DNA of 64,000 nt, from NCBI GenBank assembly GCA_034190875.2, contig CM067349.1, positions 30,268,359 to 30,332,358 on the forward strand, given 5' to 3'. The stretch comes from Urechis unicinctus (taxonomy: Eukaryota; Annelida; Polychaeta; Xenopneusta; Urechidae). A model generated the notes under the pieces. That model worked only from the letters and a program-made list of their open reading frames with translations, was not told the origin of the DNA and made no database searches. The translations under genes were made by a program, and so were the position numbers. Of this stretch, positions 7,301 to 28,938 are shown in pieces (position 1 is the first letter of the stretch; each line of letters starts with the position of its first letter).

Positions 7301-9511
7301 TGTAAACGGCGGCAATTCTGTTCACTGAGCATCTCTTATGTTACATAGATATGATGATGATTGAGGGGGCGGTTAAGTGGTTGGATTAGCAATGTTGTTT
7401 ACAGGTAGGTAGCATGGTAGATTGGTGTACAGGTAGGTTGTAAGAATCAAGTGTTTTGTTCGGGTAAATCAGCAGCCACTTAGTACAAGTGCAGACAACT
7501 GTGGACGAAGCGTCAAAAGACGCTAGCGTTATCAACAGCGTCTGTAAGATCGCATTTAATGACGCGCATGCGGATGACTCCACATCCAGGATGACGCGCT
7601 TATATAGCAGTACTCGGACCCTCAACCCTCTCTCACATCATCGCTTCCTCCCTCCGATAACCTCACGTACTCGACCCTCATTTCATGGCTATTATAAACC
7701 CAGTTTTACACCCGTGCCTCCCTCGCCAGCCAGTACCTGCCCAAACCCCAGTACACCCTACTCCATAAATAAGCCAGGCTCTATGCGTTACTGCTTGTGT
7801 GCTTATATACAGCGTGGGCTGCTGTCCAGAGCGGGCCCGCCGGCACTTACCGCCTGCCGGGTGTATCGCAGCCCGGTACCGACTCTCTGCCCTGACAAGA
7901 ACAGATAAATAAAACCACAACAACAATCGCTACAGAGTCTACTCCTAAAAAACCTCTTGTAGGGGATTTATAAGATATTACCGACGATTGATGTGACGTC
8001 ACGCGGCCGTAGATCAGGCGGGCTGACAGAACAGTGTTTACACTGGTTGTCGGCGGCCAACGGCAGAGGCGGTCCATGTAATCTGCTTGAGGAGGGGTGG
8101 GGGTAGGGAGATGAATGAGGCGGGGTGAGGTGAGAGATAAGCCAGATGTATGAGACACAACTTTTGACATAGGGGATGGTGTGTCGAATGCGGTTATCGT
8201 GTGGGTGCCCTGTATTGTCGATCGCATGTGTTTTGTGAAATACGAAATTGATAAGTTTGCATGCATTCATTAGTGAGCTTGTACGCTTGTTGTTTCTATG
8301 GGAATAGAATATACATACATACATTGATGTGTCACATTTGCATCGATATATTGTCTGTATCAATATGTCATGTCGTTATCTATATGTCAGCCAGTATCAG
8401 TCCGCTGAGGATGTATCACTATTCCTTGTCTCTATTAAAGTGTCATACCCGTTTCAATATGTCATGCAACAAGTCCCGTGCGCATGAGCAGTCAATGGAT
8501 CAGTTGGCCTGTTATTCAGATCATCGCAATTGATACCTTACAGCGAGTACATCAGCCGAACTGAGACAACACGACTACGACATCGACCGGACGTCCGGTG
8601 ATGCATGTTGTCATGGTAACCGGCTGTTATCACTAGCCGTGATGACGGGGGGAGGTCAACCATGCGCACAGACAGCTGCCCTCTCTCCACGACATGAATT
8701 GACCCTTCGCATGACCTCTAAGGTCACAAGGAATGGTGAACTTAGCCTTCACGTACACTGGATACACTAATGAGTGATCTGGGCGTCGGCAGGAAGAGGT
8801 GGTCAATATACGGTGATATTGACCCAAACATACTGCATATCTAAATGTCATGTCATGTCATGTCATCAACAGTAATGCCTTACAGTTTCACCAAGTCACT
8901 GTTCCCTTTGCGCTCATAATCCGTGTAGCAATAAACCGCCAAGTGTGGAGACCAACTGGAGGCTGCAACTTTAGTTCGGCGTCAAGGCGATATTAGGCAG
9001 CATAATTACATCATTCGTGACGTGTGTGCTTGGAATTCAGAGGTCATTAGTTGAATACCCTGATAACGAGTTTTTGACGCCTAGTCTGCAGATCAATGAG
9101 TGTTATGAGGCTGTCTGTGCAATAAACATGTTACAGATCACGCCCGCTGTGTCGATATTATTGAGAAAAATTTGGCCGATTTATGACAGGAAATTAACAA
9201 GTAAAGGTGGCTGTCATAACGTTCTGCGGCAGCTGACTGGCTTGGGTCGCGCGGCGATGGGGAAGAAGGAGACCTGGTAAGAAAGGCGTCCCAGTGTGGC
9301 GCTTCATTAAACGCCCCCCTGTCAGTCGGCGGCCACTGGGCGCTTTCTCGCCAAGCTGAAGCGAGCGCCAACACAAGCGCCCCGCAGTGGCTTCACATGG
9401 AAATGACAGAACTGCGGCAAAAAAATCACCCAGGCGCACGACCGCCTGGTCGACAGTGAATTCACCTTACCTTCTCTGGTTTATCCGGCTCTTATCAGTT
9501 GCCATCTGTCG

Positions 9512-9660
9512 TGACGTCATGTGATTGGTTCCGGCTCAGCTTAGCATCCAGTTTTACGTTGCGTCATTCGCTAGTTGCGTCTATATCGGCTAATTTGATA
9601 CCTTCAGTTTCGGCTTAGCTTTAGAACCTAACAGGCCGCCATCTTGGAGCTAGCCATGTA
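9512..9660 (+). promoter_or_regulatory. candidate promoter-like cluster: CRE, inverted CCAAT, YY1-like site
   Basis: A perfect CRE palindrome TGACGTCA (9512-9519) is followed after four bases by ATTGG (9524-9528, an inverted CCAAT box). A TATATC word lies near 9581, and GCCGCCATCTTG at 9635-9646 matches the reverse of the YY1 consensus, a common initiator-region element in animal TATA-less promoters. An ATG just downstream at about 9656 meets a stop at once, so no coding sequence follows directly. Promoter function is an inference. Confidence 0.3.
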
Positions 9661-12257
9661 AACACAGCTGCGCCGAACAGGGTGCGCATTACTCCTTCTG
9701 ATTTATTACTCTTTGGGAGGAAACTAACGCATTTTTTTTTGCCTTTACCCAGCAGTGAATGAATTATAAAAACGAATTTCGTTAGAAAGTTTTATGTTAA
9801 GTCATTACTTTTTTTGCCAGATGAAATTCAGCACCTACTTAGTGTAGCAATCGGGCCTGAAACCTGACACTTTTCAATCAGGAATATTTACGAGACGGCA
9901 ACCCGGGCACGCCCAAATCTGCCACGTGATTTGAGGGGCATTCCGGATGTCGGGTCTGGTTTCAGAAGCTCCGCCCATCGGCCTATTTGGCCGGCTGCCA
10001 ATAGATAGGCACAGCCCTCATTCTCGTAGGTTAAACAGCAAAACAGCCCGATCGAACCAGTCTGACTCAGTAACGATCGTTTTTAGATAAACAAACTAAC
10101 ATTTGACGTCGTAGGCAGGTATGCCTACCAATCATTTCTCCGGGAGGTATTAAAACAATTGACCTAATTTCGAATGGTGTTATTTGGAGTTGTCTCTCGT
10201 GATGTTTTTCAATGAGATATTGACTACGAGCAGTTCCTCCGCGATAAACTCTGTACTGCATGAATTGATGAAGCTCTCCGCTCGCTTCTGGACCTCACAA
10301 GTTTATTTTCGATCAGACAGAATGATAAGCTACTTTCATTTTCATTCAACATTTGATATCATATCATTGGAATCATATTGAAATGCAGGGCTTATGTGAA
10401 TGTCTATGGATTTTACACTCCATATATCTGTTGACTATATATGTATATATCGGTATTTGTGTGTATAAATAAATAAATAAATTTATTTTTAAAACAATAA
10501 TGCTCGTGGTAAGAATTAATAAATGACACATTGATTTGTACTCCAATGAACGCGGACATGTGGACATTCTAAACATTGCCCTTTTTGCTTACATTCATGC
10601 TCAAATGCCAGCAAATTCACACGCGCATTAACCACCAAAATGGATATTATTTCCCGGGGTCTGTAGCAGGCGCAGGGCTTCACTCTGTTGTCGTGTGTCT
10701 AGAACACTTCGATGTCCTTGATTACCTATATTACCATACATAAGGCGAGTCGCCTTGTTATTGAGTTGTTCATTTTAGAGCAATTTCTTTTTATTCAAAC
10801 GAATTTACTTATTCCTGAATGGATGATGAATTTATTCAGTTCAATGGCCTCATTTGATGTTGTTTTTGGCGCAGACGACATTTAATGAAGACTGTTCTGT
10901 GAGGACGCAGATGGATTGAATTCTGCATGACGTCAGATAACGTTAAGCTTATCAGTCTATGTACCATGGAATCGTCTGAGTGTTAAATGACTTGGGAGGA
11001 ATCTATAAATAACTGTCCTAAATTATCATTATTGAAACCTTTGATGCAAACCATTATGATTTTGGTTGTATAAATGGACACCTGCTCGTCGACTCTTTGT
11101 GCGATGCCAGCCGGATTTGAGACACATTCTGTCTGTTTGTGTGCGCTATCAAACAAGAAGAACAATGGTATAAATGCTTCAACGTTCCCCTGTATTGTCG
11201 GGTGTGGAAGAAATGATGACGTCATCATGGATGCGGCAGAGCTAACCAGGCGGCCACTGATTGATTGCAAAAACTGAGTTACAGCGTGATTGTAAAAGCC
11301 TTATTATCGCCCATGTGAATTCGTCAACAGTCTGGCTATTGTGTAGATATCTCTCGAGTTCCAACCACTCCGCTTGTGTTAACGCTTGATTGTGCCCATC
11401 ACTGGACGAGGCGACACTGATAAATGAAGCTTGTGTGTATATATATAGCACTTTAATCTGGACTTAAAAACTGGTTGACTAAGACGCCAGTAAACAAAGC
11501 GATGGCCTGCTTTACAGACGGAAGGACGCCAACCCCCGCGACCGGACGCGAATCGCGCGAGGCGGAATTGATAGGTTTGTTTGTATATATATGGCGGATC
11601 CTCGATTACATGTTCTCGGTTTTTTTCCGACCTCAGGCCTGGCGTCCGCACTTACAGGTTATAGAATGAGTGCTTTAGGTCTGCTAAATAAGCGCACACA
11701 CTCGCCTAGACCTCAACACCGCGCCAACGCATGTCCACCCCTAGCCCTACCCCACCACCATTCATACTTATTGAACAAATAACGTGAAATGTTAAATCTT
11801 GTTTATGTCAACAAAAACGAGCGAGAATCTATAGGAGCTATGTTTGGGGAAGAGAAAAACTCTATTTCGATGTTTCTTTGCGACTTTCGTCTTCGAGCCT
11901 CACTCCCCAAACGCCCCCACATCACACTCATACAACGTACCACGTGACAATAATAACTACCGCGCTAGTTAGTTCTCCGGCTCATACTCCAGGTAAATAA
12001 AAATGCTCACGTCGAATCCATGGAGGCGTGTATGGTGATAGCGACAGAAGGATGAAATCAGCACCGCGAGGTTGATCCCGCTTGACGATATGAGAGGGAC
12101 ATTAAAGTGATATTCCAGCCAACTGAACGAGATTATAATATCACAGACTTCACTCATTTATTGAATAATTCCGGATTTTAAAGACAGCGAGAACCATAGT
12201 TAGGAAGGTTTTCCTTTTTTTTTCAAACGCTTCGATAAGGGCTGATTTCATAGTCGG

Positions 12258-27896: not shown

Positions 27897-28070
27897 CTAG
27901 GTCAGATTTTACCCCCAACACCAAGACACAGAATTTTTTTATCTCACCTAACACGCTGATGAAATAAACTTATTAAGTGCATAATCGTAATCGCTTTGAT
28001 CACGAATAACCAAATTTGATGTTTCCAGAAATTATCCTAACCTTAATGTTGTACATAGATTCCATTCAAG

Positions 28071-28110
28071 TGCTCTGACACATTTTCGAGATAAAATGTG
28101 TGCTCTGACA
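28071..28110. repeat. perfect 9-bp hairpin bracketed by a 10-bp direct repeat
   Basis: ACACATTTT (28078-28086) and AAAATGTGT (28093-28101) are perfect complements around a six-base loop. TGCTCTGACA occurs at 28071-28080 and again at 28101-28110, overlapping the arms. Confidence 0.8.
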
Positions 28111-28938
28111 AGCTTTGAAGACTGAAGCTGACAGGATATGCAACGCCTCAGGAAGTTTGACGCGTGCATAGGTGGGGGTTTCCTCATAGTCCTCTAATTA
28201 CAACATGTAAGCGTGTACGACGTGTGAGTTAACTGCCGAACTCAACTCGACATCATCACATGAAGGTTGCCCGATTTGACAACGCTGCAAATCCAAAACG
28301 CGCACAGCATAGGACTCCGTTGTTTTGTGTTTAAAACTCTGTGATTATCCTTATTCAGTCATATGCGCTTGATATTAAATTATTAAATAGACAAGTTAAG
28401 GAAAAATAAGACAACACAGCTGAAAAAGTGCTGTTTTCACTCAAAGCGCTCTTATATCTTTTATGTGACCAGGTCGAAAAGGTAATGCTAAAATCATGAT
28501 GATAAGAGGTTATTTACACTGGCTGATTTTAACTGGCATGCTACGCCTGAAGTGTATAGGAAACTTTCCCATGCTGTCCGCTACGCGTGAATAGCACGTG
28601 ACCCCGATGGTCACGAGTTCCGCGCAGGTAGAGCGCGGACAGATAACGGTTGACAAACCGCATGGTATATTATGGTTATGTCAGTGCATGTACACCAGGC
28701 GAGGTCTGACAGTAAATATACAGCCCTATAAAAACAGACTCAACGGGAAATGAAACACTATACCGGGTTTATACGTGGCTGTCATCATTGTGGTGTATGG
28801 TATCTCGGCGGTGATTGATGAAGAGGACTGGGACGCCTGGATGACGTCACCAGTGCTATATGTACTCTTTGGGACGGGGAAGGAGGGGGGATGAGATTTT
28901 GGGAGAATGTGACTGAGAATTTTTTTAGAAGAAGTTGA

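Follow-up and report, generated by a model that had tools for sequence, protein, structure and literature searches.

A 64,000-nucleotide stretch of the Urechis unicinctus genome (hereafter the window; C8:30268359-30332358 in a genome of 1.19 Gb and 926 contigs) contains twelve copies of the canonical cAMP response element (CRE), the 8-bp palindrome TGACGTCA. The excess of this word is real, strong and specific; the type of site is ordinary and its genome-wide setting unusual. The full CRE is over-represented in the genome overall, and the excess lies mainly in the full CREB/ATF consensus. The window is fairly likely to be a loose homotypic cluster of canonical CREs, some of them carried by a repeat, within a genome rich in this element. 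The basis for this reading is the number of sites, the specificity for the exact palindrome, the purines at its flanks, surroundings that are mostly unmatched elsewhere, three sites carried by a repeat, the genome-wide excess of the word and an encoded bZIP domain.

Excess of the CRE in the window and in the genome

All twelve positions given for TGACGTCA in the earlier note are exact, and an exact word search found no 13th copy anywhere in the 64 kb and none in the 10 kb flanking it to the left and to the right. Tandem arrays make up much of the window, and the twelve sites were counted in its 17,151 bp of non-array DNA. Markov models of orders 0-3 trained on this DNA predict 0.24, 0.31, 0.43 and 0.92 copies, respectively, while orders 4-6, which predict 2.4-10.6, consume the word's own counts. 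The 24 words that differ from TGACGTCA by one mismatch occur 9 times in all in the same DNA (mean 0.375), and the 23 remaining palindromes of equal composition likewise add up to 9. These counts bear out the strong excess that had been claimed. The informal control of that claim was also reproduced, as CACGTG is found 7 times in the non-array DNA against 3.6 expected by order 2, and 43 times in the whole window. Expressed as density, TGACGTCA reaches approximately 700 per Mb when only the non-array DNA is counted, 575 per Mb when the arrays within the 20.9 kb are included, and 188 per Mb over the 64 kb; the first of these values is approximately 12 times the genome average of 55.6 per Mb.

The specificity of the excess bears on a mutational explanation, wherein a region rich in unmethylated CpG would simply retain words that contain CG. 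The observed/expected ratio for CpG is indeed 0.93 in the non-array DNA of the window compared with 0.84 in a random sample of the genome. However, no rise is seen in the one-mismatch words that retain the CpG or in the remaining equally composed palindromes with a CpG, which rejects CpG retention as the sole cause, and the purine flank described below is not predicted by such retention. This explanation is considered very improbable.

The earlier note had left it open whether the window is dense regulatory DNA or the genome over-uses the word, and had proposed a genome-wide count. This count yields 66,201 copies of TGACGTCA (55.6 per Mb), which is 2.9 times as many as the 22,557 copies of the reversed palindrome ACTGCAGT used as a control. 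When one mismatch is allowed, the totals are 619,323 and 496,332, respectively, and the ratio of the exact word to the mean of its neighbors is 2.87 for TGACGTCA (66,201/23,047) as compared with 1.14 for the control (22,557/19,741). Approximately 43,000 sites are thus above background. The over-use of the word by the genome stands, as does the further enrichment of the window, and it is the reading of the window as dense regulatory DNA that stays conditional: the sites suggest that it may be so.

The excess was also seen in a random sample of twenty 10-kb stretches (192.8 kb after exclusion of N), taken in 10-Mb steps on contigs C2 (7), C3 (7), C4 (5) and C5 (1). This sample contains 11 copies of TGACGTCA, compared with 3.9 per neighbor word and 2.5-4.5 predicted by Markov orders 0-3, and 10 of the 11 stay when recurrent 12-mers, or likewise recurrent 14-mers, are masked. 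A ranking of 8-mers against the masked random sample placed TGACGTCA first; it was not used, because a 10-mer mask deletes 8 of the 11 sample CREs, owing to the recurrence of RTGACGTCAY words in the sample.

Flanking bases and the CREB/ATF family

The bases around the CRE were examined in a set of 32 sites comprising the 12 in the window, 5 from a second cluster, 11 from the random sample and 4 others in eight loci fetched with the 14-mer TGACGTCACCAGTG, where the selected 14-mer sites themselves are left out. The base 5' of the 8-mer is G in 33, A in 21, C in 7 and T in 3 cases, and further positions are near background. A purine is therefore present 5' of 54 of the 64 half-sites, with shares of 21/24 in the window, 10/10 in the second cluster, 16/22 in the random sample and 7/8 in the other loci. 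The form RTGACGTCAY is the consensus of the CREB/ATF dimer. Genome-wide it accounts for 36,340 of the 66,201 sites (54.9%), as compared with 5,930 of 22,557 (26.3%) for the reversed form, a 6.1-fold difference, and 9 of the 12 window sites have it in full. This flank pattern fits the ten-base footprint expected of a CREB/ATF dimer.

The protein side of this assignment was probed with a search for the bZIP family, which returned 14 matches above the cut-off in the genome. The top three were translated and compared with structure chains. One bZIP exon matches CREB1 (chain 5zko, E 2.8e-24; chain 1dh3, E 2.5e-20); of the other two, one matches Jun and one is weaker to the CREB chains (E 1.5e-6). 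As judged from its translation, the first of the three codes for a CREB1-like bZIP domain. The exact palindrome with its purine flank, together with this predicted domain, agrees with the canonical CRE and supports the assignment of TGACGTCA as the full CREB/ATF site. The CRE is given as GTGACGTCAC in a portion of PMC4555227.

The twelve sites and their surroundings

The sites and the two mobile elements near them are as follows (window positions; no strand is assigned).

7994..8001, CRE GTGACGTCAC; no other match among those listed (window 7283-12089) and none in the sample
9512..9519, CRE GTGACGTCAT; no other genome match among those listed
10928..10935, CRE core ATGACGTCAG; no other genome match among those listed
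11217..11224, CRE ATGACGTCAT; center of a 16-bp palindrome; no other match among those listed
12090..13317, dispersed transposon-like repeat; three CREs inside; inverted arms at 12273-12290 and 13149-13166
12274..12281, CRE GTGACGTCAC; in the dispersed repeat; 8-mer intact in 8 of the 15 other copies covering the site
12496..12503, CRE core GTGACGTCAA; in the dispersed repeat; 8-mer intact in none of the 4 aligned copies
13158..13165, CRE core CTGACGTCAC; in the dispersed repeat; 8-mer intact in 2 of the 5 aligned copies
19805..19812, CRE ATGACGTCAT; single copy; followed after 6 bp by octamer-like ATTTGCAAAT
21959..21966, CRE GTGACGTCAC; single copy
24325..24332, CRE GTGACGTCAC; directly left of the transposon copy; followed after 3 bp by an inverted CCAAT box
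24399..25727, transposon copy; CATCTGCAGATG-like repeats and a weak, sub-threshold Ulp1/C48-like remnant; no TGACGTCA inside
25773..25780, CRE GTGACGTCAT; to the right of the transposon; matched at one further place in the genome (65 bp at 83%; 2 of 2 candidates scored)
28842..28849, CRE ATGACGTCAC; no other genome match among those listed

The earlier note had placed all twelve sites in single-copy DNA. This description fails for 12274, 12496 and 13158, which lie in the dispersed repeat, and holds for 19805 and 21959, whose flanks match nothing else in the genome (all 15 candidates scored). When the genome was searched with window 7283-13370, the matches listed comprised the query alone up to 12089, followed by the repeat up to 13317 with at least 46 matches elsewhere; the best 40 of 741 first-look candidates were scored, such that weaker matches to the left of the repeat are possible. 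Site 28842 has no other match among those listed (best 40 of 65 candidates), and neither this site nor 7994, 9512, 10928 and 11217 has a match in the sampled stretches. Site 24325 is covered by no match among those listed (best 39 of 2,789 candidates), which is an indirect test only, and the site is probably single copy. Both 24325 and 25773 flank the transposon at 24399-25727 and lie outside it. The same type of transposon is also found at 8673-9540 of stretch L030, and a 12-kb query around the window copy gave 2,789 first-look candidates, of which 39 were scored. A second dispersed repeat occupies window 27810-28529, with at least 53 matches elsewhere (best 40 of 65 candidates), some of them in local groups on C6 and C11.

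These searches bear on the explanation that one or a few dispersed repeats containing TGACGTCA gave rise to the sites by copying, the cluster being a nest of mobile DNA. The three sites in the multi-copy repeat at 12090-13317 favor it, as do two kinds of CRE-bearing repeats outside the window. The first is an ETS-CRE composite, TGACGTCAYTTCCGG, which occurs 3,573 times genome-wide as compared with 3 times for its reversed control and accounts for 5.4% of all TGACGTCA sites. Its places are C1:543-15177, C1:7202525-7234902, dispersed positions, L027 at 2201, L032 and L050-L059. All 10 of the 10 dispersed C1 copies that were fetched (of the 3,573 sites) belong by sequence similarity to one satellite-like repeat group, and L032 contains nine cores within one mismatch, of which six are exact and three have one change, two of these being CG to TG. 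The second is a small inverted pair of TGACGTCA at 3417-3536 of L023, set within 17-bp arms (TTTCCTGTGTGACGTCA) like a small inverted-repeat element.

On the other side, the flanks of 19805 and 21959 are unmatched with all candidates scored, five further sites (7994, 9512, 10928, 11217 and 28842) are without another match in the searches described above, and composition around the 32 sites is near background beyond one base. Furthermore, the extended word TGTGGTGTGACGTCA of the 12090-13317 family occurs only 75 times genome-wide (4 times reversed); this family therefore hardly explains the genome-wide excess. A single shared repeat behind all twelve sites, which the earlier note had named as a refutation, was rejected, as most sites are without a repeat match in these searches, some of which scored only the best candidates. 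The broader mobile-DNA explanation appears already contradicted for most window sites by their surroundings and is held to be improbable.

Sites 13158 and 28842 have the 14-bp word TGACGTCACCAGTG in common, of which the genome contains 42 copies compared with 9 of its reversed control. This word was rejected as a mark of the repeat family, as five other copies of the repeat at 13158 read CCAAAA (4) or TCGAAA (1) at this place; 28842, the other bearer of the word, is without further match among those listed.

The composite motif (C/GCGGAAGTGACGTCAC) is described in portions of PMC3464117 and PMC4555227. Its reverse complement is TGACGTCACTTCCGG, which was seen in the C1 repeats as well as in L027 and L032. 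Part of the former reports 226 occurrences of the 11-mer CGGAAGTGACG in human DNA, whereas here the 15-mer form is found 3,573 times, in repeats where examined. The overlapping ETS-CRE form is not in the window, and the TTCCGG near 9512 stands apart from the CRE: an inverted CCAAT box (ATTGG) follows this CRE after 4 bp, and TTCCGG follows it directly.

Companion motifs within 100 bp of the sites, which we take to be CCAAT, ETS, YY1-like, octamer and TATA elements, are scattered without a fixed grammar. The strongest companion 6-mers, AGTGAG, CACTCA, ACTCAC and GAGTGA, fit a microsatellite beside one site in L027. Beyond the sites, window 32242-62699 is a 30-kb array of a degenerate 32-bp unit (approximately 935 copies), which is followed by a 31-bp array (window 62556-64000) that runs on into L030 (1-867) and by a short 32-bp array (L030 926-1253).

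Clustering along the genome and significance of a CRE-rich genome

CREs are clumped outside the window as well. On C1:59187-1714482, which contains 88 copies of TGACGTCA after the first 12 of 100 listed sites (C1:543-15163) were left out as array-like, 17 gaps are shorter than 2 kb compared with 8.8 in simulation (p 0.006). RTGACGTCAY behaves similarly on C1, with 24 of 84 gaps below 5 kb compared with 11.5 simulated, a number that none of 5,000 simulations reached (15 array rows at C1:542-15171 were excluded). The second cluster, C1:1211501-1221500, contains five sites that are all 10-bp palindromes with differing flanks, and a second TGACGTCA is present in 4 of the 8 loci of 3 kb fetched with TGACGTCACCAGTG. 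Satellite arrays match or exceed the counts of the window, with 24 ETS-CRE sites in the 32 kb of C1:7202525-7234902. The window is extreme for non-satellite DNA within the sampled sequence, and uniqueness is not claimed.

It could be argued that the cluster is a chance tail of a mildly clumped genome-wide CRE distribution, without local function. The window has 12 sites in 20.9 kb where 1.16 are expected at the genome rate, and the corresponding Poisson probability is 4.3e-9, or 0.00024 over all bins, which speaks against chance. Bins of 20.9 kb on C1 have a variance/mean of 1.54, with a maximum of 6 sites in 20.9 kb over the 1.66 Mb, and a negative binomial with this overdispersion raises the probability to 3.9e-5, such that approximately 2 such bins of 57,000 are expected genome-wide. 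Nevertheless, the clumping of CREs itself calls for explanation, and the full consensus form of 9 of the 12 window sites also tells against this explanation, which is regarded as unlikely.

Several results weigh against the reading of the window as a homotypic cluster that is favored here. By the negative binomial estimate, the cluster may represent no more than the extreme end of a clumped distribution, and the dense places on C1 are not significantly richer in RTGACGTCAY (12/18 compared with 40/70). The mean spacing of approximately 1.9 kb is wider than that of a compact enhancer. The CRE is not specially conserved in the 12090-13317 family, as retention of the 8-mer is 0.53 (rank 65 of 193; median 0.46) in a comparison of the best-scoring, hence better preserved, copies (17 fetched stretches and L027); selection on the CRE inside the family was looked for and not seen. 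Finally, the window has no tRNA, neither it nor L029-L032 has an Rfam match, no convincing protein domain was found in 11 scanned open reading frames (ORFs) of 112 listed (window 3800-32300; sub-threshold matches only, with Peptidase_C48 the most plausible), and nine ORFs from L029, L030 and L031 gave nothing credible. These searches therefore offer no target for the cluster.

In the reading judged most likely, CREB/ATF dimers would bind many of the window sites provided that their CpG is free of methylation, and these sites may act jointly as distal enhancer or alternative-promoter elements of a cAMP- or stress-responsive transcription unit. The sites could have accumulated via point mutation and retention, with a few arriving via insertion of a word-carrying repeat. 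A stronger proposal, which we regard as rather doubtful, is that the full CRE has been heavily amplified as a regulatory word, kept by selection for CREB/ATF binding and partly spread by repeats bearing the CRE or the ETS-CRE composite, the window being one distributed CRE hub. If this were true, CRE hubs would be domains of tens of kb with many CREs working jointly, unlike in the reportedly CRE-poor human genome.

The cluster shares with known homotypic clusters of transcription factor binding sites the many copies of one site with flanks that appear mostly unrelated. It differs in its spread over 21 kb, its wide spacing and the tandem arrays between sites, and is not a compact enhancer. Homotypic motif environments around bound sites are described in part of PMC4561487. 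With transposon-borne transcription factor sites it shares the three CREs in a dispersed repeat and, elsewhere, the ETS-CRE composite in a satellite-like repeat; in contrast to such sites, most window CREs have no repeat match and no selection was seen on the repeat CRE. A passage of PMC1796609 states, as data not shown, that the human genome holds 25% of the expected canonical CREs, and its survey finds a promoter-position bias of the CRE in vertebrates only, with none in sea squirt, fly or worm. The reported human depletion contrasts with the excess in the U. unicinctus genome. No report of such an excess in an invertebrate was found in the literature surveyed by title and start of abstract, and absence from print is not claimed.

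One genome thus has more canonical CREs than expected, and these bear the footprint of a CREB/ATF dimer, where human DNA is reportedly depleted of the element. This offers a testable case of how a CREB network may expand through point mutation and through site-bearing repeats, and the 12 sites of the window are at hand for tests of occupancy and reporter activity.

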